From Sphaerobacter thermophilus DSM 20745 (GTDB taxonomy: Bacteria > Chloroflexota > Chloroflexia > Thermomicrobiales > Thermomicrobiaceae), in the NCBI RefSeq assembly GCF_000024985.1, contig NC_013523.1:2356001-2420000 (forward strand): 64,000 nt of DNA, in the 5' to 3' direction. This document shows positions 32,573 through 43,987 of this stretch, one piece after another; the stretch's first letter is position 1, and each line of letters starts with the position of its first letter. The translations under genes and the position numbers were made by a program. The notes below the pieces were generated by a model. The model had not been told where the DNA came from. It saw nothing but the letters and a program-made list of their open reading frames with translations, and made no database searches.

Positions 32573-35524
32573 CTACCAGAGGCGGTTCTCAAGGGCGAAG
32601 CGTGTGGCCGCAGCGCGGGAGGAGACCCCCAATTTGTTGTAGATCGAGCGCAGGTGCTGGCTCACCGTGCGCGGGCTGAGGAACAGGCGCTCGGCCACCT
32701 GCGCGTCGGTCAGGCCATCCGCTACCAGCCGTAGGACCTCCACCTCGCGGGGCGTCAACCCCGCAGGGTAGGCCGCACCCGCGCGGCGAGCGCGCGACCT
32801 GGACAGCCGGGCTTCGATGGCACGTGCCCGGTCCAGCGCCGGGGCTGCGCCCAACGGCTCGAGGATCGCTCGGGCCTCTGCCAGGAGTTCCCGCGCCGCG
32901 GCCGGCTGGCGCGTCGCGCCGCGGTGCTCGGCGAGGGCCAGCAGGGTCAGGGCACGCTCGTAGCGGGCGGCGCAGGCGTCGGCCAGTGCCAGGGCGGCGT
33001 CCAGGTGGCGCGCGGCGTCATCGTGGCGCCGGGCGGCGGTATCGAGCTCTCCGAGCGTTCGGTAGGCATGGAGCAGAACCAGCGGCTGGCGCGGATCGCT
33101 GGCGTCCTCCAGGGCGCGGACGGCGCGTCGCCGCGCCGCAGCGGCTTCGCCCGCTGCGCGATGGTACGCGGCCCAGCCGAGATGGCCGGCCGCGCGCCCG
33201 AGTACCGCCCCGCTCCACGCCACCCAGCGGTCGTGGGCTTCAAGCCAGGCCCGTGCGGTCGCGAGATCCCCGGCATCGAGCGCCAGCATGGCGGCCAGCC
33301 GCTGGATCGGCAGCGTGTCGAGCAGGATCGCGTTGCCCGGCTCCGCTTCCAGCCCCGCCGGGAGCTGCTCACCCACGAGCTGCCAGGCCAACGCCGCGTC
33401 TCCCTGCTCGCGCGCGAGCGTGGCCAGCGCGCTGCGGGCAAAGGGACGCCAGCCGGTGCGGCCGCCGGAGGTGATAGCGGCACGCGCCAGTTGCCGGGCG
33501 TCGTCCCAGGCCCCCTCCAGCAAGAGGAGCGGCAGCCAGACGAAGCGCGGCGGCAGTGACTCCCCGGCTACCTCTCCGGCACGTTCCCAGGCGGCCTCGG
33601 CCTCCCGCGCCAGCCGCTCGCGCTCGGCCAGGTCATCAGCGTGGTAGGGCAGCACCACCTCGTACAGCTCCAGGAGCAGCGCCTGCCCCACCTGGTAGTG
33701 GTGCTCGACGGCGCGGTAGGCGGCGATCGCCTCAGCGCAAGCGCGCCGCGCCGCGTCAGGGTGACCCAGGACAGCCGAGGCGCTCGCCACCCCGCGCCAG
33801 GCATTGGCGTAGCCCGAAGTGCCAAGTCCACGCGCGGGTACCTCGGGCTCCGCGCTCGGGCCGAGGGCCAGCGCGTCCGCGCACCGGCCCGAGAGCGCGA
33901 GCCAGTTCACCAGCGCGCCCCGGTAGTGGTACTCATCGGGCGGGTCACCCACGCGCACGAGGCGCTCGCGCAGCCTCGCCCGCTCCTCGTCGCTCAGGGC
34001 ATCGATTGCAGCGATCGACTCCTCCAGGATCGCCAGCCCGGCGCGGATATCGCCGATGACACAGCGCAGGCTGCCGCGGAAACAGCCGACATAGGCGGCC
34101 AGTGGCCGGTCGCCCGCCTCCTCCGCCAGGGCGATCGCGTCGTCGAGGTAGGCAAGCGCGTGGCGTGGGTCGGCATAGCGGCGCATCCGCGCCACGCGGT
34201 AGAGGAGCAGCGCCTGCTCCTCCGGCGGCGCGCCCTGGGCTTCCAGGATCTGGAGCGCGGCGTCGAAACGTTCCCCGGCTGTCAGCAGCGCGTAGGCCCG
34301 CTGCGCCAGATCCCCGGCGCGAATCAGCCACTCCGCCGCCCGCGGGTCTCCAGCCCGCTGCAGGTGGTAAGCGACGGCATGCGGGCCGGGCGTGGGGGCA
34401 GCCATCAGCGTCTCCGCTACGCGGCGGTGCCACAACCGCTGCCGGGGCGGCAGAAGCCCGTCGTAGAGTGTCTCGCGGATCAGCGCGTGCGCGAAGCGCA
34501 CGGCGGCGCCGTCGGAGTGGGCCTCGAGGAGCCGCGCCTCGACCGCCGCCTCAATCACATCGAGCAGCTCTTCCTCCGTGGCCCCGGTGACCGCCTCCCA
34601 CAGCCCAAGGGGGACTTCCTGGCCGATGACCGCCGCGACCGAGAGCAGGTGGTGCGCCTCGTCGCCCAAGCGCGCCAGCCGCCCTTCGATCACCTGGCGC
34701 AGCAGCGTCGGGACGCCCGCCTGCGTCAGATCGCCGAGGACCCAGCCGTCGCCCTCCAGCCGCAGCAGGTGCTCATCTTCGAGCGTGCGCAGGAGTTCCC
34801 CGACGTAGAGCGGGTTGCCCTGTGCCCGCTCCTCGAGGTAGGCCATCAGGCGCGACTGCGCCTCGACCGACAGGGTATAGCGGGCGGACACCAGGGTGCG
34901 CACATCGTCCGGCTCCAACCGGCGCAGGTCCACCCGCAGGGCGCCCGCCTCCCGCACCAGGAGCGGCAGTAAGGGAAAGAGCGGGTGCCGCCGGTTCACC
35001 TCGTCCCCCCGGTAGGTGACGACGAGGAGCATCGGTGCGCCGGCCACACCACGCGCCACGAAGCGCAGCAGCTCGAGGCTGCCTACATCGGCCCAGTGCA
35101 TGTCCTCCAGGAGCAGCACCAGCGGCTGGCGTGCCGCCAGGGTACCCAGCCACTCCCACATGCGGGCGAAGAGCGCCATCTGGCTGGCGGACTGGGCCGC
35201 GGCTTCCTCGAGCGGCGGCACCGGCGAACCCTGGTGCGTGATCCCCTGAGCCACAACCTCGGTCCACGGCCCGTAGGGTGGCGTCTCGATCAGGTCGTAG
35301 CAGTGGCCCACCAGGACGAGCGCGCCCTGCTCACACGCCTCGCGGCCGATCCGGCGCGCCAGTGCCGTCTTGCCGATCCCGGCCTCACCGCTGATCATCA
35401 CCAGCCGGCCGCGCCCGCCCAGCGTATCGCCCAGCGCCGCGCGCAGCGTCGCCTGCTCGCTCTCCCGCCCGACCAGGACAGGGGGATGCTCGTCGAGGGG
35501 AAAAGGAAGTGGTGTCACGTCCAT
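32573..35524 (-). CDS. Large ATP-binding LuxR-family regulator (LAL type)
   Basis: A 983-residue regulator. The N-terminal AAA-type ATPase has VGRESE, Walker A GEAGIGKTALARR (about 45-57) and Walker B LLLLEDMHWAD; a long middle region of helical repeats (about 330-880) looks TPR-like; the C-terminal LuxR helix-turn-helix is GLTPREVEVLRLVADGL then AERLFLSPRTVSQHLRSIYN. Such proteins bind an inducer through the repeats and activate transcription. ATG 35524 is taken; a GTG 17 codons earlier (35575) is possible and neither has a clear ribosome site. A -10-like TATACT lies at 35602-35597 on the minus strand. Neighbours give no clue to the inducer. Confidence 0.9.
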   Translation of the reverse strand: MDVTPLPFPLDEHPPVLVGRESEQATLRAALGDTLGGRGRLVMISGEAGIGKTALARRIGREACEQGALVLVGHCYDLIETPPYGPWTEVVAQGITHQGSPVPPLEEAAAQSASQMALFARMWEWLGTLAARQPLVLLLEDMHWADVGSLELLRFVARGVAGAPMLLVVTYRGDEVNRRHPLFPLLPLLVREAGALRVDLRRLEPDDVRTLVSARYTLSVEAQSRLMAYLEERAQGNPLYVGELLRTLEDEHLLRLEGDGWVLGDLTQAGVPTLLRQVIEGRLARLGDEAHHLLSVAAVIGQEVPLGLWEAVTGATEEELLDVIEAAVEARLLEAHSDGAAVRFAHALIRETLYDGLLPPRQRLWHRRVAETLMAAPTPGPHAVAYHLQRAGDPRAAEWLIRAGDLAQRAYALLTAGERFDAALQILEAQGAPPEEQALLLYRVARMRRYADPRHALAYLDDAIALAEEAGDRPLAAYVGCFRGSLRCVIGDIRAGLAILEESIAAIDALSDEERARLRERLVRVGDPPDEYHYRGALVNWLALSGRCADALALGPSAEPEVPARGLGTSGYANAWRGVASASAVLGHPDAARRACAEAIAAYRAVEHHYQVGQALLLELYEVVLPYHADDLAERERLAREAEAAWERAGEVAGESLPPRFVWLPLLLLEGAWDDARQLARAAITSGGRTGWRPFARSALATLAREQGDAALAWQLVGEQLPAGLEAEPGNAILLDTLPIQRLAAMLALDAGDLATARAWLEAHDRWVAWSGAVLGRAAGHLGWAAYHRAAGEAAAARRRAVRALEDASDPRQPLVLLHAYRTLGELDTAARRHDDAARHLDAALALADACAARYERALTLLALAEHRGATRQPAAARELLAEARAILEPLGAAPALDRARAIEARLSRSRARRAGAAYPAGLTPREVEVLRLVADGLTDAQVAERLFLSPRTVSQHLRSIYNKLGVSSRAAATRFALENRLW

Positions 35525-35808
35525 GGGCTGCAGACGTCGCTCGTGGTGAGCGCGGCGCAGTGCGGCGCAGCGCACGATTTGTCGGTCATCTGTTCTAGTA
35601 TAGCACGGCCAGGTGCAGGGTTATTCCTCATTGCCACGAGCGCGGGCGGCGGACGGCGCCGTACCCGTCCCCAGCGCACCCCCCCTCGCCCAACGTTGGG
35701 AGAGGGGTTGGGGGTGAGGGCCGTTCTCTCGGCATGGGGTCGAGCGGTGCTCCGGCCCTGCGCCGGTCGGTATGACAACCCGGAGGAGACCGGTCCACCA
35801 CATAACAA
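35525..35808. repeat. Spacer with a CCAACGTTGGGAGAGGGG hairpin
   Basis: The stretch 35677-35721 matches the hairpin family seen at 21.6 and 32.0 kb, here followed by TTGGGGGTGAGGGCC. The rest shows no gene. Confidence 0.6.
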
Positions 35809-35846: not shown

Positions 35847-36539
35847 CTAGTGCCCGGCCGCCTCGGTCGCCAGGCTCTCGCCAACCGGAGCGGCGCGGCC
35901 GTCGTGGGAGGGGTCGCCGTTGTCGAGGTAGTAGGTGAGGCTCTGCAGGGCGCTGACCGGGTCGATCTCACGCACCCAGACCGACTCCGGCACCTTCAGG
36001 ATCACCGGGGCGTAGTTGAGGATCGCCCGCACCCCGCCGGCGATCATCCGGTCGGCCACGTCCTGCGCCGCGGCGGCCGGAACGGCCACGATGCCGATCT
36101 TGATCCCCATCTCCCGGATGACCGGCGTCAGTTCGGCCTCGTCCAGGACCACGGTGCCGTTCACCTGCTGGCCGATGTGCTCCGGGTTGCGGGCGAAGAT
36201 CGCGGCGATGCGGAACGCATTCGGTTCGAAGCCCCGGTAGTGGGCGATGGCCTGTCCCAGGTGGCCGAAGCCGGCCAGTGCGACGTCCCACTGGCGGTCC
36301 AGCTTGAGGATGTGAGCGATCTCCTCCGCCAGCCGAGCAACGTCGTATCCCTTGCCCTGCTTACCGAACTTACCGAAGTAGGAGAGGTCCCGGCGGATCT
36401 GGGCCGCCGTCACCCCGATGCGCTCGCCCAACTCCTCGGACGAGATACTCGTCACGCCCGCGCTCAGCATCTGCTTGAGCGTGCGCTCGTAGATCGGCAG
36501 CCGCCGAATCACGATGTCGGGAATCCCACCGCGTCTCAT
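35847..36539 (-). CDS. rex: Redox-sensing transcriptional repressor Rex
   Basis: A 230-residue Rex protein, which represses respiratory and fermentative genes and lets go when NADH rises. The N-terminal winged helix (about 1-80) includes RLPIYERTLKQM, SSEELGERIGVTAAQIRRDLSYFG and GKQGKGYDV; the Rossmann domain begins ALAGFGHLGQAIAHY (GxGxxG, about 88-102) and contains AVPAAAAQDVADRM; the swapped C-terminal helix carries SLTYYLD. Length is usual (about 210-230). A promoter candidate lies at 36726-36697. Its likely targets include the respiratory operon in this window, though no clear Rex box was found there. Confidence 0.93.
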   Translation of the reverse strand: MRRGGIPDIVIRRLPIYERTLKQMLSAGVTSISSEELGERIGVTAAQIRRDLSYFGKFGKQGKGYDVARLAEEIAHILKLDRQWDVALAGFGHLGQAIAHYRGFEPNAFRIAAIFARNPEHIGQQVNGTVVLDEAELTPVIREMGIKIGIVAVPAAAAQDVADRMIAGGVRAILNYAPVILKVPESVWVREIDPVSALQSLTYYLDNGDPSHDGRAAPVGESLATEAAGH

Positions 36540-36696: not shown

Positions 36697-36726
36697 ATGC
36701 TACCATTCATGCAGAAAACCGGTCAA
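36697..36726 (-). promoter_or_regulatory. Candidate promoter of rex
   Basis: On the minus strand TTGACC (36726-36721) and TAGCAT (36702-36697) are 18 bp apart. The -35 box overlaps the last codons of the XRE-type gene. Confidence 0.4.
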
Positions 36727-37850
36727 CGTGCCGGGTTTCTCTCACTTGCTTCCGCCTGCCGCCGCCGCAGCCAGACGACCACCGCCTCCCGACTCCGATC
36801 GGTTTCGGGAAGGCTATCCCACAGCCGATCGACCAACCCCGCGACCGGGGCCGTGGTCTCCGGTCCTGCGACCCAGAGCCCGACGCGCACCGTGGACTCC
36901 CGCCCTCGCCGTTCAGGCAGCCGCTCGATCAGGCCGCCCTGCTCGTCGACGCAGTAGATGTTGAACGGCCCGAGGTCCGCGTCCGTGACGGCCAGCTCGA
37001 AGTTGGCGTCCTGGTCCAAGCGGTCGAGCAGCCGCGCACAGAGGTTGAGCGCCTGCGCCCGCGCGAGGTCCGGTCCCGGGCCGGCCTTCTCGGTGTCCAG
37101 AGCGCGCTCCAGGTAGCTGCGGCTCAGGATCATGCGCGTGGGCCAGCGGCGCATCACGGCGGGGTCACGCACCCACTCCGAGGTTTCCCAGGTGGAAACC
37201 GCCTGCGGGTCGATTGCCTCCCGGCGGAAGACCGCCTGATAGGCCGCGACCAGATCGGCCTCCGGTGGCAGGAGGAAGAAGCTGCGGCTCGCCACCAGGA
37301 TGCGCCGGTGGCCGGGGGTCTGCACCAGTTGCAGCCAGGCGCGCGCGAAGGCCGGCCCGCCCATCCCCGCCTGGCGGATCAGCCGGTTGAGCGCCCTCCA
37401 GACCTCGGCCAGATCGTCATGGCGCGCGGCACGCGCCACCAGCTCCTGGGTGGCCAGCGGGGGAAGCGTCGCCTCGCCCAACTGGCGCAGGCACCCGACC
37501 AGGGTGCGTCGCGCCTCGATCGACAGGTCGAACAGCTCATCCCGCACGGGAGGACCGATGCCGAGCATATCGAGGTAGCGGCCCAGGTCGGCGTCGAGGA
37601 GCGTCACGTCGCGCTCGAGCCGCACGAACTCGTCGATGCCGACCCCAAGCACCTCAGCGATCTTGGCCAGGACCGTGAAGCTGGGGAGCGTCTGGCTTCG
37701 TTCGAGTCGACTCAGGTGCGACGCTGAGATGCCCGCTTGTGCTGCCAACGCGTCGAGTGTCATCCCCCGTTCTTGCCGTAAGCGGCGGATCGCCGGGCCG
37801 ATCCGCTGCCGTTGTACCGGCTGCATCTGCACCACTGTCCTACTCCCCAT
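36723..37850 (-). CDS. XRE-family helix-turn-helix regulator with a large C-terminal domain
   Basis: A 375-residue protein. The N-terminal Cro/CI-type helix-turn-helix (about residues 16-72) reads IRRLRQERGMTLDALAAQAG then ISASHLSRLERSQTLPSFTVL. The remaining 300 residues form one or two helical-then-alpha/beta domains of no type I recognise; they may bind a ligand. Start at ATG 37850; an in-frame ATG at 37826 is an alternative. It lies upstream of rex on the same strand and diverges from the DUF2089 operon, whose promoter is flanked by inverted repeats that this protein could bind. Confidence 0.8.
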   Translation of the reverse strand: MGSRTVVQMQPVQRQRIGPAIRRLRQERGMTLDALAAQAGISASHLSRLERSQTLPSFTVLAKIAEVLGVGIDEFVRLERDVTLLDADLGRYLDMLGIGPPVRDELFDLSIEARRTLVGCLRQLGEATLPPLATQELVARAARHDDLAEVWRALNRLIRQAGMGGPAFARAWLQLVQTPGHRRILVASRSFFLLPPEADLVAAYQAVFRREAIDPQAVSTWETSEWVRDPAVMRRWPTRMILSRSYLERALDTEKAGPGPDLARAQALNLCARLLDRLDQDANFELAVTDADLGPFNIYCVDEQGGLIERLPERRGRESTVRVGLWVAGPETTAPVAGLVDRLWDSLPETDRSREAVVVWLRRRQAEASERNPAR

Positions 37851-38151
37851 CTGTCATGCCGCCGCCCCTCGTACCCCAAGGGGCACGCGACCGACGGGCT
37901 GTAACCGCCACACCGACCTGGGGCAAGATCTGCCCCCTCTGTGCTTCCGTCCAAGTACTGGCCAGGCTAGTGACGGCATTTTGGATGCCGCGGAAATCCT
38001 GACTGCACGCCCCGCCTCCCGACCCCCGACGCGACCCGCGCCCAGCACCTCACTCCCTCTCACTGGTTCCAAACTATTCTGAACCAATTCTTCACAATCT
38101 CTTGACAACGGATCAGAATCAGTCTAGACTGGGCCGCGTTAGGAGGAGATC
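37851..38151. promoter_or_regulatory. Divergent control region: promoter and inverted repeats
   Basis: TTGACA (38102-38107) and TAGACT (38125-38130), 17 bp apart, form a good promoter for the DUF2089 gene; AGGAGGAG follows at 38141. The -35 box is bracketed by ATTCTGA (38076-38082) and TCAGAAT (38113-38119), a perfect inverted pair, and GGTTC (38065-38069) with GAACC (38081-38085) form another. The rest of the 300-base gap shows no gene. Confidence 0.6.
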
Positions 38152-38568
38152 ATGTACAACGCACCACAACAATGCCCAACCTGCGGTTCCGCGCTTCAGA
38201 TCCAGGAGCTGGCCTGTCCTACCTGCTCTACGATCGTGCGCGGCCGGTGGGCGGCCAACCCCTTCAGCCGGCTGACCGATGATCAGCAGACGTTCCTGCT
38301 GCTCTTCGTGCGCAGCCGCGGCAACCTCAGCGACGTCGAACGAACCCTCGGCGTCTCCTACCCAACCGTGCGCGGCAAGCTCGAAGACATCATCGCGGCG
38401 CTGGAAGAGCCGGAGCCGGAACCGGAACCTGAGCCGGAGCCGGCGCCCGCCCCTGCGCCGTCCACGGAGCGTGAGAAGATCCTCGAACGCATCGCCCGGG
38501 GCGAGTTGACGGTCGACGAAGGGATGGCACAGCTCCGCCGCCTCCAATCCGGCGGAGACGCTCGCTAG
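38152..38568 (+). CDS. DUF2089-type zinc-ribbon/helix-turn-helix regulator
   Basis: A 138-residue protein. A four-cysteine zinc ribbon (C8, C11, C22, C25; CPTC twice) is followed by a helix-turn-helix (about 40-83; VERTLGVSYPTVRGKLEDII), an (EP)n linker (about 85-100) and a short C-terminal helix pair ILERIARGELTVDEGMAQL. This is the DUF2089 plan. The same C-terminal motif ends the DUF4097 protein two genes downstream. A strong promoter and AGGAGGAG site precede ATG 38152. First gene of a probable operon with an MFS exporter and the DUF4097 protein, likely as its regulator. Confidence 0.85.
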   Translation: MYNAPQQCPTCGSALQIQELACPTCSTIVRGRWAANPFSRLTDDQQTFLLLFVRSRGNLSDVERTLGVSYPTVRGKLEDIIAALEEPEPEPEPEPEPAPAPAPSTEREKILERIARGELTVDEGMAQLRRLQSGGDAR

Positions 38569-38617
38569 CAGCGCGGCCAGCATCTATGGGAGCTGGCCAC
38601 GCGGATCGGGAGACTAA

Positions 38618-39937
38618 ATGATCGCCACACGCGGCCAGGCCTCCGGCGCTAATCGTATACCCTTTCTGGCACTCCTGGGTGCCAATGCCATCTCGATGGT
38701 CGGCACGCGCGTCACTCAGATCGCCATCCCCTGGTTCGTGCTGCAGACGACCGGGAGCGCGGCCAAGACCGGCATCGTCGGCTTCGCCGAGATGCTGCCG
38801 ATCATCATCGCCTCCTTCTTCGGCGGCACCCTGGTCGACCGCATCGGATTCAAGACCGGCAGCGTCGTCTCCGATCTCCTGGCCGGGGCCACCATTGCGC
38901 TCATCCCCGCGCTGCACCACACCGTCGGACTGGAGTTCTGGCAACTCCTGATACTCGTCTTCTTCGCAGGGCTCTTCGCCACCCCCGGCATGACCGCACG
39001 CCAGAGCCTCGTACCCGACCTGGCGGAGCTGGCCGGGCTGCCGCTGGAGCGGGCCAACGCCGCCTACCAGGCGATCCCACGGCTCTCGCTCCTGGTGGGC
39101 CCGGCGCTCGGCGCGGCCCTCATCTCCCTGGTGGGCCCCAGCCAGGCCCTCTGGCTCGACGCCGCCGGCTACGTCGTGTCAGCGACCATCGTGCTGGTCG
39201 GTGTCCGCGGGCTGCGCCGCCAGGCCACCGTGAGCGGATCGTCCTCCCGCTACCTCGATGAGCTGCGCGAGGGGCTGCAGTTCGTCCGCCAGAACAGGCT
39301 GGTCCGAACGATGATCACGGTGATGCTCGTGATCAGCATCGTCGACATGCCCCTCTTCTCCGTCGTGCTGCCCGTCTACGCCGACCGCGTCCTCGGCAGC
39401 GTCGTCGCGCTGGGCACCATCGTCAGCGCCTTCGGCGCCGGCGCGCTGGCGGGAGTCCTCGCCTACGGCGCCGTCGGGCACAAGCTGCCCCGGCGGCCCA
39501 CGCTGGTGATCGCCTTCGCCGCGTGCTGCCTCTCGCTCACCCCGCTCGCCCTGGGAGCGCCCCTCTGGGTGATCGCGACATTCATGGCGGTGGAGGGCGT
39601 GATCTCGGCGCCGATCAACCCCCTGGCGATGACGCTGCTCCAGGAGGAGGTCCCCGCCGAACTGCGCGGGCGCGCCTTCGGACTGGTCACCGCCCTCGGC
39701 CTTGCGGTCTCCCCGCTGGGGCTGCTGATGGCCGGCTACATCATCGACTACGTTGGGCTGCTCCCCATGCTCGGCCTGATCGCGGTTTCCTACCTGGCCG
39801 CCGCCGCCGTGTGCGGGACAGCCCCCGCCCTCCGCAACCTGAGCTCGCCACCGGCGCCGGAGCCGGTGCCGGTGGCATCGACGGCCGACACCGACCTCCG
39901 CCATGCGGCGGGCTACCGGGAAGGAATCAGCCGATGA
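38618..39937 (+). CDS. MFS transporter (12-helix, MFS_3/EntS-like)
   Basis: A 439-residue major facilitator with 12 helices. The N-terminal FLALLGANAISMVGTRVTQI then FGGTLVDRIGFKTGSVVSDL, and the middle RQNRLVRTMITVMLVISIVD, resemble the MFS_3 exporter group (enterobactin or macrolide exporters). Substrate unknown. It lies 49 bases after the DUF2089 gene and its stop overlaps the start of the DUF4097 gene by four bases (ATGA, 39934-39937), so the three form one operon. Confidence 0.88.
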   Translation: MIATRGQASGANRIPFLALLGANAISMVGTRVTQIAIPWFVLQTTGSAAKTGIVGFAEMLPIIIASFFGGTLVDRIGFKTGSVVSDLLAGATIALIPALHHTVGLEFWQLLILVFFAGLFATPGMTARQSLVPDLAELAGLPLERANAAYQAIPRLSLLVGPALGAALISLVGPSQALWLDAAGYVVSATIVLVGVRGLRRQATVSGSSSRYLDELREGLQFVRQNRLVRTMITVMLVISIVDMPLFSVVLPVYADRVLGSVVALGTIVSAFGAGALAGVLAYGAVGHKLPRRPTLVIAFAACCLSLTPLALGAPLWVIATFMAVEGVISAPINPLAMTLLQEEVPAELRGRAFGLVTALGLAVSPLGLLMAGYIIDYVGLLPMLGLIAVSYLAAAAVCGTAPALRNLSSPPAPEPVPVASTADTDLRHAAGYREGISR

Positions 39938-41205
39938 GTACGAGCGAACACCGTATCGCCGCTTCCGGAGTAGACGTCCTGCTTATCGAGGGCACCGAGG
40001 GTGACCTGCGGGTCACCTGGACCGAGCGGGACGACATCCTGGTCCGCGGCGACTACGTCGAGATCGAGCATGACGACGACCGGGTGGAGATCTCCTGGCA
40101 GTCCGCCACCGTGGCCAATGCCCTGACCTCCATCCTCGGGATCGGCACCGGCTCGCCCGTCACGGTGGAACTGCCGCAGACCATTCGCCGCACCGAGATC
40201 ACCCTGCGCACCGGCGACCTGGTGCTCGACAGCCCGCGGGGCACGGTGCAGGCACGGGTCGACCGAGGCGACACCATCGTCGACGGCGGCGACGGCGAGA
40301 TCGAGATGAAGCTCGGCGGCGGCACGATCCGGGTCGAACGCTTCACGGGCCCGGTCACGGCCAGCTCCGGCGCGGGCGACGTCAAGCTGACGAACGTGAC
40401 CGGGAAAGTGGTGGTAAGTGCCGGCGCCGGGGATGTCCTGGTCCAGGGCGGCACCGGCCCGGTGAACCTCAAGCTCGGCGCCGGGGACGCCGTGGTCGAC
40501 GAACGCGACTGCGACAACCTGACGATCAAGCTCGGGACCGGCGACGCGATCGTCCGCAGCGGCACGAGCGCCACGACGAGCATCCACAACGGCCTGGGCG
40601 ACATCGTCTGCCGCACCGTTCTCGGCCTGGGCGAGCACAGCTTCACCACCGGCTCGGGCGACATCACCGTCGCCGTCCAACGAGACATCCGCGCCCGGAT
40701 CGAGGTCATCACCGCCCGAGGCAAGATCGACAGCGAGATCCCGCTCGTGAGCGTCGGCAAGCGCGGGCCGAAGAGCGTGCTCGGACGCCGGCTGGTCGGC
40801 AGCATCGGCGACGGCGATGACCGTGCCGAAATCCGCATCCGCGCCGTGCGCGGCGATGTGGACCTCCGCTGGTTGACGGGGGCCGGCGCGCGTTCCACCA
40901 CCCCGGTGCGACCGGCGGCACCTCCATCGCCCTCGACTCCAGAACCGCCGGTGCCCCCGACACCTCCGGCACTGCCCGAGGCGCCCGCACCGCCCGAGGG
41001 TGTCGAAGCGGCCGATTCCGACACGGACGTGATCCTGGTGGGTCCACCGGCCGCCGAGACGCCGCGCACCGACGAAAGCGAGTTCGAGAACTACCAGCGT
41101 GTGATCCTGAGCGAGCTGGCAGCCGGCACACTCACCGTTGCCGAAGCCGAGCGCCTGCTTGACGCCCTGGCGCAGCGGCAACAGGGCCAGCACACGACCG
41201 CGTAG
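39934..41205 (+). CDS. DUF4097-type beta-helix protein with C-terminal SHOCT-like motif
   Basis: A 423-residue protein. Residues about 1-310 are a run of short strands with Gly-Asp turns (for example SSGAGDVKL, SAGAGDVLV, KLGAGDAVV, KLGTGDAIV, GSGDITV), the repeating pattern of DUF4097/YvlB-type beta-helix proteins. A Pro-rich linker (about 325-370) leads to a C-terminal helix pair VILSELAAGTLTVAEAERLL (about 391-410) that closely matches the end of the DUF2089 regulator in the same operon. No signal peptide, so probably cytoplasmic. Function unknown. ATG 39934 overlaps the MFS stop. Confidence 0.85.
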   Translation: MSTSEHRIAASGVDVLLIEGTEGDLRVTWTERDDILVRGDYVEIEHDDDRVEISWQSATVANALTSILGIGTGSPVTVELPQTIRRTEITLRTGDLVLDSPRGTVQARVDRGDTIVDGGDGEIEMKLGGGTIRVERFTGPVTASSGAGDVKLTNVTGKVVVSAGAGDVLVQGGTGPVNLKLGAGDAVVDERDCDNLTIKLGTGDAIVRSGTSATTSIHNGLGDIVCRTVLGLGEHSFTTGSGDITVAVQRDIRARIEVITARGKIDSEIPLVSVGKRGPKSVLGRRLVGSIGDGDDRAEIRIRAVRGDVDLRWLTGAGARSTTPVRPAAPPSPSTPEPPVPPTPPALPEAPAPPEGVEAADSDTDVILVGPPAAETPRTDESEFENYQRVILSELAAGTLTVAEAERLLDALAQRQQGQHTTA

Positions 41206-41389
41206 CGCACCACGACCGAACCGACGACCTGATCCCGGAGCCGCGCGCGAACCGCGGCGGCTCCGCCAGGGGCCCGCTGCGCTCTGAAAGGAGAGGCTAC
41301 CCAGACCACACCTGAACCATGCCCGCGCCACCTGTCCGCTCTGACGACACCGACCTGGCACCGACCCGCACGATGAAGGGAACCGAGCT

Positions 41390-41626
41390 ATGCACTCCGA
41401 TCCGTGGGTGAACCTGAAGCTAGCGGCATCACGCTGGCAAGAACGCCACGACGCCGCCGAGCACTGGCGGACCGTCCGCGACCTCGACCCGCCCCCAACC
41501 CGGCGCACCCTGCTCGCCAGCCTCGCCATCGGTGCCCGCAACATCCTCCGCATCGGCCGCGCGACCGCCGCCTCCCAGGTCCGAGGGCGCGTCGCCCGCC
41601 AGCACAGGGAGTTGGATCTGAATTGA
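41390..41626 (+). CDS. Small basic hypothetical protein
   Basis: A 78-residue protein from ATG 41390, with GAAGGGAA about 8 nt upstream and strong G/C third positions. It is helical and basic (WQERHDAAEHWRTVRDL; LASLAIGARNILRIGRATAA), with an amphipathic central helix. No family recognised. It lies 184 bases downstream of the DUF4097 gene, on the same strand, and may be the last gene of that operon; a terminator-like hairpin follows. Confidence 0.7.
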   Translation: MHSDPWVNLKLAASRWQERHDAAEHWRTVRDLDPPPTRRTLLASLAIGARNILRIGRATAASQVRGRVARQHRELDLN

Positions 41627-41663
41627 TGCGTGTTGCGTATTGCGTGTTCCGTGTTCCGTCCAG

Positions 41664-41697
41664 CCGCCCGGCTCGCAATGAGTCGGGCGGTTCATAT
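41664..41697 (+). terminator. Probable intrinsic terminator
   Basis: CCGCCCG (41664-41670) pairs with CGGGCGG (41684-41690), with an inner CTC/GAG pair, followed by TTCATATTTG. It ends the small-protein gene and probably the DUF2089 operon. Just before it lies a run of GCGTGTTGCGTATTGCGTG repeats. Confidence 0.6.
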
Positions 41698-42196
41698 TTG
41701 TGGCCCGCGTTCGAAGGAGCAGGAAATTTCGGTCCTCTCTCCGCGCCGGGCGACGCGGGGCTGCACGTGTGATGAGTACCCGGGGATAAACCCCCGGGCT
41801 GACAACGATAGCCGGCTGAAGCCGGCTGGGGGAATTTGGCCCACGCCTGGATAATAAGGAATCCACCGTGCCGGTACACGCCCGGGGCTCAAGCCGCCGG
41901 GCTGAATAATGGGGTAAGCCCACTGAAGGGGCTGCGATGGCGACATCCAGGCATGTCCGGTTCGGCCACCCACCGGGCGCAGCATCCTCAGTCCCTTCAG
42001 TGGACTTCGCTTCCTAGCCCGGCGGCTTGAGCCCCGGGCACTTGTCACCGCTCGGGGATCCTGACACCTACGGACTAGCACCGGAGACGCTCCGCCCCGG
42101 ACCCGCCAAGGGCCTGTAGTACAATTGTTCCGCTCATCGACCGCCCGCCGGCGCGGCGGTGGACCAGCAGCTAGCCGAGGGACGTGACGCCGAGCC
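41698..42196. repeat. Compound palindromic repeat island before recN
   Basis: Contains the GC hairpin (41778-41798), a GCCGGCTGAAGCCGGC hairpin (41811-41826), and a large structure in which CCCGGGGCTCAAGCCGCCGG (41883-41902) and AAGCCCACTGAAGGGGCTG (41917-41935) face their complements near 41995-42015 and 42018-42040. No gene. The last 130 bases before recN hold no clear promoter. Confidence 0.65.
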
Positions 42197-43987
42197 ATGC
42201 TCCTGGAACTCGCCATCCGCAACTTCGCTATCATCCGCGACCTGCGCCTCACGTTCCACCCCGGCCTGAACGCCCTCACCGGGGAGACGGGCGCGGGTAA
42301 GTCGATCATCATCGACGCCCTGAGCGCCGTCCTGGGTGCGCGCGTCTCCGCCGATTTCGTGCGCACCGGCGCGTCCGGTGCCTGGGTCGAGGCAGTCTTC
42401 GACGTTCGCGACCTCGCGGAGCGCGAGGACTTCCGCACCCTCCTGGCCGAGACCGGCGTCGAGCCCGAGGACGGCACGCTGATCCTGACCCGCGACATCA
42501 GCGCGGCCGGGCGCAGTGCCGCCCGTATCAACGGCCGCACCGTCACTGCCAGCACCCTCGCCCAGTTCGGCTCGCTGCTGGTGGACATCCACGGCCAGAG
42601 CGAGCACCTCTCGCTCCTGCGCCCCGCTATCCACGTCGACCTGCTCGACCGCTATGCCGGGACGCTGGAGGAGCGTGAGCGGTTCGCCGCCCTCGTCCAC
42701 GAGTACCACCAGATCCGCCGCCAGATCGACCAGATCGTCGCCGACGAGCGGGAGCGCGCGCACCGGATGGACCTGCTCCGCTTCCAGGTCGAAGAGATCA
42801 CCGCCGCCAAGCTGCACCCGGACGAGGAAGCCGAGCTGGAGCGCGAGCGGCTCGTGCTCGGCAACGCCGAGCGGCTGGCGCGCCTCGCCGCCGAGACGTA
42901 CCAGTTGCTCGAAGGGGCTGACGACACCGGGCCTGCTCCGGTCTCCGGCGCGCTCGACCAGATCCGGCTGGCGGCCGAGCGGATCGAAGAACTTGCGCGG
43001 GTCGACGCGACGAACGAGCCCCTGGCGAACCAACTGCGCGAGGCGCTCATCCTGCTGGAGGATGTCGCCCACGGGGTGCGGGTCTACGCCGAGGAGGTCG
43101 AAGGAGACCCGGAGCGCCTGGCGGCGGTCGAGGATCGGCTGGCGCTCCTCAAGCAGCTCAAGCGCAAGTACGGCGCGACAATCGCCGAGGTCATCGCCTA
43201 CGGCGAGCAGGCCGCCCAGGAACTCCACGACCTGGACACCAGCGAGCAGCGGGTCGAGGAGTTGCGCCACCGTGCCGCTGTCCTGCTGCGACAGATCGCC
43301 GAGCAGGGCGCGCGGCTGACCGAACGCCGCCGCGCCGCCTGCGGCGAGCTGGAGCAGGCGGTCGAGCAGGCCATCGCCGAGTTGAACATGGGCCGGGCCC
43401 GCTTCGTGGTCGACCTGCGCCCCCTGACGAGCGGCACCGTCGCCCACCTCCCGGGCGACGACGGCCGTGACGGCCCGACGATCACCTTCGATCAGACCGG
43501 ACTCGACCGCGTCGAGTTCCTGATCGCCCCCAACGCCGGGGAGACACCCCGGCCACTGGCCCGCATCGCCTCCGGCGGGGAGACCGCCCGCCTCATGCTC
43601 GCCCTCAAGTCGATCCTCTCCGCGGCCGACGCCACCCCCACCCTGGTCTTCGACGAGGTCGACGTCGGCGTCGGCGGCCGCAGTGGCCAGCCGGTGGGCG
43701 AGAAGCTCTGGTCACTGACCGGGCAGCACCAGGTCATCGTCATCAGTCACCTGCCGCAGATCGCCGCCTTTGCCGAGGCCCACTACCGCATCACCAAGGA
43801 CGAGTACGACGGCCGGACCGAGACGCGCATCGAGCGCCTCGACGACGACGCTCGCATCGATGAGCTGGCCGCCATGCTCGACGGCCTGCCGGTCACCGCC
43901 GCCTCCCGTCAGAACGCCCAGGAGATGCTGGCCCGCATCGAGCAGTGGAAGCGCCAATCCGGCCGCGTCCCCGCCACCACCCGCTAG
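42197..43987 (+). CDS. recN: DNA repair protein RecN
   Basis: A 596-residue SMC-like ATPase for double-strand-break repair. Walker A is GETGAGKS (about 30-37), a long coiled-coil middle spans about 150-370 with a short hinge, and the C-terminal half carries the signature ASGGETARLMLALKS, Walker B TPTLVFDEVDVGVGG and the switch region VISHLPQIAAFAEAHYRITK. Length and motif order are those of RecN. It starts at ATG 42197. Flanked on both sides by repeat islands and not in an operon; no LexA box was seen. Confidence 0.94.
   Translation: MLLELAIRNFAIIRDLRLTFHPGLNALTGETGAGKSIIIDALSAVLGARVSADFVRTGASGAWVEAVFDVRDLAEREDFRTLLAETGVEPEDGTLILTRDISAAGRSAARINGRTVTASTLAQFGSLLVDIHGQSEHLSLLRPAIHVDLLDRYAGTLEERERFAALVHEYHQIRRQIDQIVADERERAHRMDLLRFQVEEITAAKLHPDEEAELERERLVLGNAERLARLAAETYQLLEGADDTGPAPVSGALDQIRLAAERIEELARVDATNEPLANQLREALILLEDVAHGVRVYAEEVEGDPERLAAVEDRLALLKQLKRKYGATIAEVIAYGEQAAQELHDLDTSEQRVEELRHRAAVLLRQIAEQGARLTERRRAACGELEQAVEQAIAELNMGRARFVVDLRPLTSGTVAHLPGDDGRDGPTITFDQTGLDRVEFLIAPNAGETPRPLARIASGGETARLMLALKSILSAADATPTLVFDEVDVGVGGRSGQPVGEKLWSLTGQHQVIVISHLPQIAAFAEAHYRITKDEYDGRTETRIERLDDDARIDELAAMLDGLPVTAASRQNAQEMLARIEQWKRQSGRVPATTR

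Follow-up and report, generated by a model that had tools for sequence, protein, structure and literature searches.

The window (the whole 64,000-nucleotide stretch of the Sphaerobacter thermophilus DSM 20745 chromosome analyzed here) carries an operon of three co-directional genes encoding, in this order, a DUF2089 regulator, an MFS exporter, and a Toastrack/DUF4097 protein, and its first and last products end in the same type of helical hairpin (Table 1). We read this operon, with a probability of roughly 0.45, as a local stress/efflux-control circuit in which a Toastrack scaffold and a DUF2089 regulator would meet via unlike hairpins. Although both DUF2089 and Toastrack proteins occur widely, little is understood about them, and the question addressed is how a Toastrack protein may communicate with DNA outside two-component systems. 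A hairpin that is nearly restricted to DUF2089 operons and that differs in charge between its carriers makes the loose proposal that such genes may signal open to a straightforward binding test at specified positions.

Table 1. Operon features in the window and parts of the two hairpin-bearing proteins
Feature	Position	Strand	Basis
Sigma-70-like promoter TTGACA-17-TAGACT, 5' of the operon	38102..38130	+	Consensus match 10/12
DUF2089 regulator	38152..38568	+	Pfam, AlphaFold, Foldseek
Parts of DUF2089: zinc ribbon (residues 8-39), HTH (41-85), linker, SHOCT-like hairpin (106-135)			Pfam, AlphaFold
SHOCT-like_DUF2089-C hairpin of the regulator, residues 106-135	38467..38556	+	Pfam, genome scan, AlphaFold
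MFS exporter, H+ antiporter 2A0121/Tap-like	38618..39937	+	Pfam, NCBIfam
Toastrack/DUF4097 protein	39934..41205	+	Pfam, AlphaFold, Foldseek
Parts of the Toastrack protein: Toastrack domain (residues 8-311), Pro-rich linker, C-terminal SHOCT-like hairpin (about 380-422)			
SHOCT-like hairpin of Toastrack, residues 391-416	41104..41181	+	Pfam, genome scan, tail profile, shuffles

The regulator scores over the cut-offs of both DUF2089 families (PF09862, 71.1 bits against 33.4; PF22747, 50.4 bits against 27.6), and all four cysteines of its zinc ribbon are present. Foldseek returned no match to it at E<=0.001; the top matches were mostly sigma region 4, LuxR-type, and Fis HTH domains (best E, 0.16). 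At two other loci, zinc-ribbon cysteines of DUF2089 are replaced, all of them in L052 (7484-8200, +) and some in L057 (7568-8032, +), and these are possibly metal-free variants. The third gene product belongs to DUF4097 (PF13349, 45.3 bits against a cut-off of 22.9) and is the only PF13349 match in the genome. Its AlphaFold model is beta-rich (mean pLDDT, 87), with 4qrk as the best Foldseek match (E, 9e-9), though at low TM-scores (0.15 to 0.26); sequence searches against solved structures gave nothing relevant for either protein. A simple hydropathy scan found no transmembrane segment in Toastrack; therefore, the "beta-helix sensor" of the first-pass annotation is better understood as a scaffold inside the cell than as a surface receptor. 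The exporter, which does lie between the two hairpin proteins as first described, matches MFS_1 (Pfam, 4e-33), TIGR00900 (2e-70), and the Tap model (6e-65), the last two under the curated NCBIfam cut-offs. Its assignment as a Tap equivalog was discarded (219.9 bits versus the 625 needed), which leaves it as Tap-related only.

The Pfam profile SHOCT-like_DUF2089-C (PF22746), a 32-residue hairpin with a gathering score of 27, aligns by hmmscan with both tails, at 24.2 bits in DUF2089 (E, 2.3e-5) and 16.6 bits in Toastrack (E, 0.006). Six-frame scanning of the whole genome (two contigs, 3,993,764 bases; the window belongs to contig 1, with the operon near C1:2394152-2397205) ranked the DUF2089 tail first (27.2 bits, over the cut-off; E, 1.7e-5) and the Toastrack tail second (20.5 bits, under 27; E, 0.002). 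Ranks 3 to 10 (E, 0.03 to 0.85) lie inside larger, unrelated proteins, identified by eye as XRE/peptidase, beta-lactamase-like, PPDK-like, Mfd-like, transglycosylase, and radical-SAM-like carriers. Thus, the common C-terminal motif originally noticed at the two ends of the operon is borne out, and unrelated proteins encoded elsewhere in the genome do not share it to the same extent. AlphaFold models each tail as a separate helix pair (residues 106-115/121-137 in DUF2089 and 380-396/402-422 in Toastrack), with pLDDT of 88 to 96 for most of both hairpins and low confidence for the linkers carrying them, which are modeled as flexible. The earlier wording of a SHOCT-like helix pair does not extend to the classical SHOCT domain (PF09851), which neither protein matches at E<=1; the five PF09851 matches in the genome are all away from the operon.

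The Toastrack match taken alone falls under the Pfam cut-off (16.6 versus 27 bits), as would be expected if two amphipathic C-terminal helix pairs had come to look alike by chance or convergence. A profile built from DUF2089 tails, with the rows of the window and two Sphaerobacter genomes left out, nevertheless scored the Toastrack tail at 17.5 bits, a value reached by 0 of 2000 composition-preserving shuffles (best, 10.3 bits). The DUF2089-tail profile also matches 36/36 Toastrack orthologues near the C terminus (window included; E<0.01, with E-values for 36 sequences), and PF22746 itself is found at E<=0.01 in 26/36 Toastracks and 28/39 DUF2089s. Chance resemblance is contradicted by both the shuffles and the conservation, and we reject it as highly improbable.

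Joint conservation of the two motifs in other genomes, which had been proposed as a check on the initial observation, is strong. Our survey of relatives covered 61 genomes, that of the window included, 37 of which have a DUF2089 over the cut-off. A co-directional Toastrack with a C-terminal hairpin follows within 5 kb downstream in 36 of these 37 DUF2089-bearing genomes (window included), at a distance of <=1.4 kb in 34 and of 4.6 kb in two; the operon of the window belongs to this Toastrack-DUF2089 context. Three genomes with a Toastrack and no DUF2089 match (G012, G015, and G021) fall outside this count, whose base is DUF2089-bearing genomes; the matches of the first two run to the contig end and the contig of the third measures 3571 bases. 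The single exception, G027, has three DUF2089 genes, one of which lies some 10 kb from a Toastrack match; all three paralogues retain the hairpin, and the roughly 8 kb examined around them contain no Toastrack. In one sister genus, all seven sampled genomes lack both DUF2089 and Toastrack, three of them being <90% complete or small and one showing a weak DUF2089 match below the cut-off. At 16/36 loci, the two genes flank a gene for a small third protein that bears the hairpin close to the N terminus (14 identified by pattern, with L059 and L074 added by profile), and PF22746 scored over its cut-off in all three third proteins scanned from the order (L065, L076, and L051). Because the two tails are the top two matches in the genome and are strongly co-conserved, it is reasonable to propose that they let DUF2089 and Toastrack interact, either directly or by way of a shared partner.

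This association extends to other phyla. We took the best 80 of 583 loci, several of them near relatives, from Chloroflexota, Bacillota, Armatimonadetes, Thermus, and Thermotoga records and probed them with a profile made from DUF2089 tails only, DUF2089 itself not being counted. In these best 80 of 583 loci, 74 of 1044 ORFs located 0 to 3 kb downstream on the same strand matched at E<=0.1, versus 2 of 9019 other ORFs (2/2206 upstream, 0/1462 further downstream, and 0/5351 on the other strand; Fisher p, 3e-71, computed on ORFs and loci that are not independent). A hairpin partner was thereby found at 65/80 loci of this best-80 set; at E<=0.01, the same four classes held 56, 2, 0, and 0 ORFs, respectively, and 50/80 loci had a partner. 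Likewise, among the best 150 PF22746 matches listed for 201 Chloroflexota genomes, 131 lie within DUF2089 (42) or follow it on the same strand at 0.45 to 8 kb (89); another three sit just upstream. Among the 19 exceptions to these best 150 listed matches, 11 come from genomes whose DUF2089 lies elsewhere, none being listed for the contig of the match. The PF22746 hairpin is thus nearly private to DUF2089 operons, where its carrier and end change: it sits at the N or C terminus of Toastrack or in the third protein, while staying in the operon. No natural DUF2089-Toastrack fusion appeared among the matches listed in these surveys. A minority of strong matches away from DUF2089 (G237:C15:266457, G240:C3:216030, G254:C6:20495, and others) represent possible other hairpin contexts or contig breaks.

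The hairpins of the two carriers differ in charge. Of 120 distinct pairs, 110 have a hairpin that is more basic in DUF2089 than in its partner (tied in 6, less basic in 4), and after reduction to 70% identity the mean net charge is +0.40 for DUF2089 hairpins (80 sequences) and -3.76 for partners (89 sequences). Hairpin position 26, where the swap in charge is greatest, is K/R in 65% of DUF2089s and D/E in 54% of partners, and positions 5, 10, and 29 likewise differ. Such a difference suggests heterotypic pairing of unlike hairpins. The pair of the window is weakly asymmetric (net charge of 0 in DUF2089 and -1 in Toastrack) and is not among the 120, presumably because the Toastrack hairpin did not reach the E<=0.5 limit applied to the larger set. 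A fixed salt bridge at position 26 is not supported, since charges do not covary pair by pair over the 120 pairs (DUF2089/partner: positive/negative in 30, neutral/negative in 37, positive/neutral in 30, both positive in 12, and rare classes in 11). The net-charge anticorrelation is weak (r, -0.24) and is reached by 0.9% of permutations within three coarse groups, which do not fully remove phylogeny; within the family of the window, it is absent (r, 0.10; n, 9). Basic residues of DUF2089 could serve DNA binding instead.

The charge data also bear on what else the hairpin might do. SHOCT-like domains have been predicted to be membrane anchors (Ravi et al. 2024, PMC11237479, section 27), and each tail might accordingly tether its protein at the inner membrane face, or to one common third partner, so that co-location suffices and the hairpins are not mutual binders. 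This fits a Toastrack devoid of its own transmembrane segment (simple hydropathy scan) and the PspC or LiaI-LiaF-TM membrane proteins of related operons (PMC11237479). Strongly acidic partner hairpins (mean net charge, -3.76) are, by contrast, ill-suited to direct binding of anionic lipids, and a common ligand does not require DUF2089 and partner to differ at surface positions 5, 10, 26, and 29; we thus regard anchoring as rather unlikely. Alternatively, the hairpin could be a homotypic oligomerization tag, a mobile domain that spread within the operon with no cross-talk between its carriers, and helix pairs are indeed simple, mobile, and found at either end of different proteins. We deem this improbable: one classical SHOCT did not multimerize its carrier, which was monomeric (PMC3581485), the charge difference in 110/120 pairs favors unlike partners, and the hairpin is nearly restricted to DUF2089 operons.

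Pairing of unlike hairpins, the reading that we prefer, would work as follows. DUF2089 would bind DNA via its HTH and control its own operon. Toastrack would be a soluble intracellular scaffold responding to membrane or substrate state, and its acidic hairpin would pair heterotypically with the neutral-to-basic hairpin of DUF2089, which in relatives might also pair with that of the small third protein. By sequestering or releasing the regulator, the scaffold would set the level of the MFS exporter. Counted against this circuit are the G027 paralogues that keep the hairpin with no Toastrack in the roughly 8 kb examined, the weak asymmetry of the window's pair, the lack of covariation at position 26, the monomeric classical SHOCT (PMC3581485), and an MFS placement that is not general. 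More tentatively, PF22746 might be a dedicated two-sided adaptor, in which a basic DUF2089 "plug" and acidic "sockets" on its partners, be it either end of Toastrack or the small third protein, would build specific hetero-complexes and provide a phosphorylation-free route from an intracellular Toastrack scaffold to transcription. Such a route would serve Chloroflexota and Bacillota as well as other phyla and, in this operon, would be linked to an exporter.

Parts of this picture have precedents. Ravi et al. (2024, PMC11237479) defined Toastrack, recognized three parts in DUF2089 (zinc ribbon, HTH, and SHOCT-like), and reported a four-gene context of DUF2089 with Toastrack for which signaling to transcription was proposed. 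Therefore, the route from sensor to DNA-binding protein suggested by the first-pass annotation was already a published proposal (section 27); what we show is the conservation, and the binding, the signal, and the regulatory sign are inferred. The operon shares with that context the three-part DUF2089, the nearby Toastrack gene, and SHOCT-like domains, there at both Toastrack ends, and it differs in having an MFS exporter in place of LiaI-LiaF-TM, B-box, or PspC. Section 27 of that paper carries no statement of one hairpin on two operon members, of its near-restriction, or of a charge difference. Among the papers listed by our literature searches, we recognized none on shared-hairpin pairing or on the charge difference, although some of this may be contained in Text S2.4 of Ravi et al. 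What is new here is a hairpin near-private to DUF2089 operons, with variable carrier and end, neutral-to-basic in DUF2089 and acidic in its partner. LiaX/YvlB of the enterococcal LiaFSR-X system provides the experimental precedent of a Toastrack protein restraining a regulator (PMC10269926); it likewise combines a helical part with Toastrack (PF13349) in stress signaling. However, LiaX, described as a protein of the cell surface, acts by way of LiaF and the kinase LiaS (PMC10269926), whereas Pfam finds no two-component gene among our three and the partner is the DUF2089 protein. Similarly, HAAS-PadR pairs couple a helical signaling domain to a one-domain HTH regulator from the adjacent gene, but with other domains and a regulator not described there as carrying the domain of its partner (PMC11237479). 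SHOCT PF09851 (PMC3581485) is also a short, mostly terminal two-helix domain and yet a separate Pfam family. The operon is not of the PSP/Lia type, with no PspA, PspC, LiaI-LiaF-TM, or LiaRS in it; the PspA and two PspC domains of the genome are far away (C1:1184262, 1843046, and 709242).

The exporter is a less constant companion. At 17/39 loci, DUF2089 has a same-strand homologue of the exporter no more than 3 kb away, mostly 3' of Toastrack, in a survey in which several contigs end early. Placement between DUF2089 and Toastrack was seen, among the 39 loci, only in the three Sphaerobacter genomes and G028, and none of eight loci from the other genera of the window's family has a homologue near DUF2089. 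G028 (L058, 1954-8531, -) has three exporter-homologous MFS genes between DUF2089 and Toastrack and a fourth after Toastrack.

Within the operon, the MFS stop and the Toastrack start overlap (ATGA); the start at 39523 given by the mechanical ORF call is spurious, and 39934 was taken instead. Two promoter-type sites occur in 37700-42300 versus 0.4 expected, and TTGACA is kept in 11/11 aligned upstream regions at the family level. ATTCTG and CAGAAT flank the -35 box (about 38074-38122, +) in all three Sphaerobacter sequences compared and form a possible operator, a lead read from the sequence; an inverted TGGTTC..GAACCA upstream was dropped as an operator, not being preserved in the next Sphaerobacter genome. 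Downstream of Toastrack, a 78-amino-acid ORF (41390-41626, +) precedes a terminator-like site (41662-41692); neither Pfam nor NCBIfam matches it at E<=1, and it could have arisen by chance or be the fourth gene of the operon. Antisense to the Toastrack gene runs a 546-amino-acid open frame (39913-41553, -), probably a shadow frame of the kind that high-GC coding sequence produces. The divergent upstream neighbors encode a Rex-like regulator (Put_DNA-bind_N plus CoA_binding) and an HTH_3 regulator (35847-36539 and 36723-37850, both -), and farther left lies a 1000-amino-acid AAA_16/LuxR regulator (32573-35575, -).
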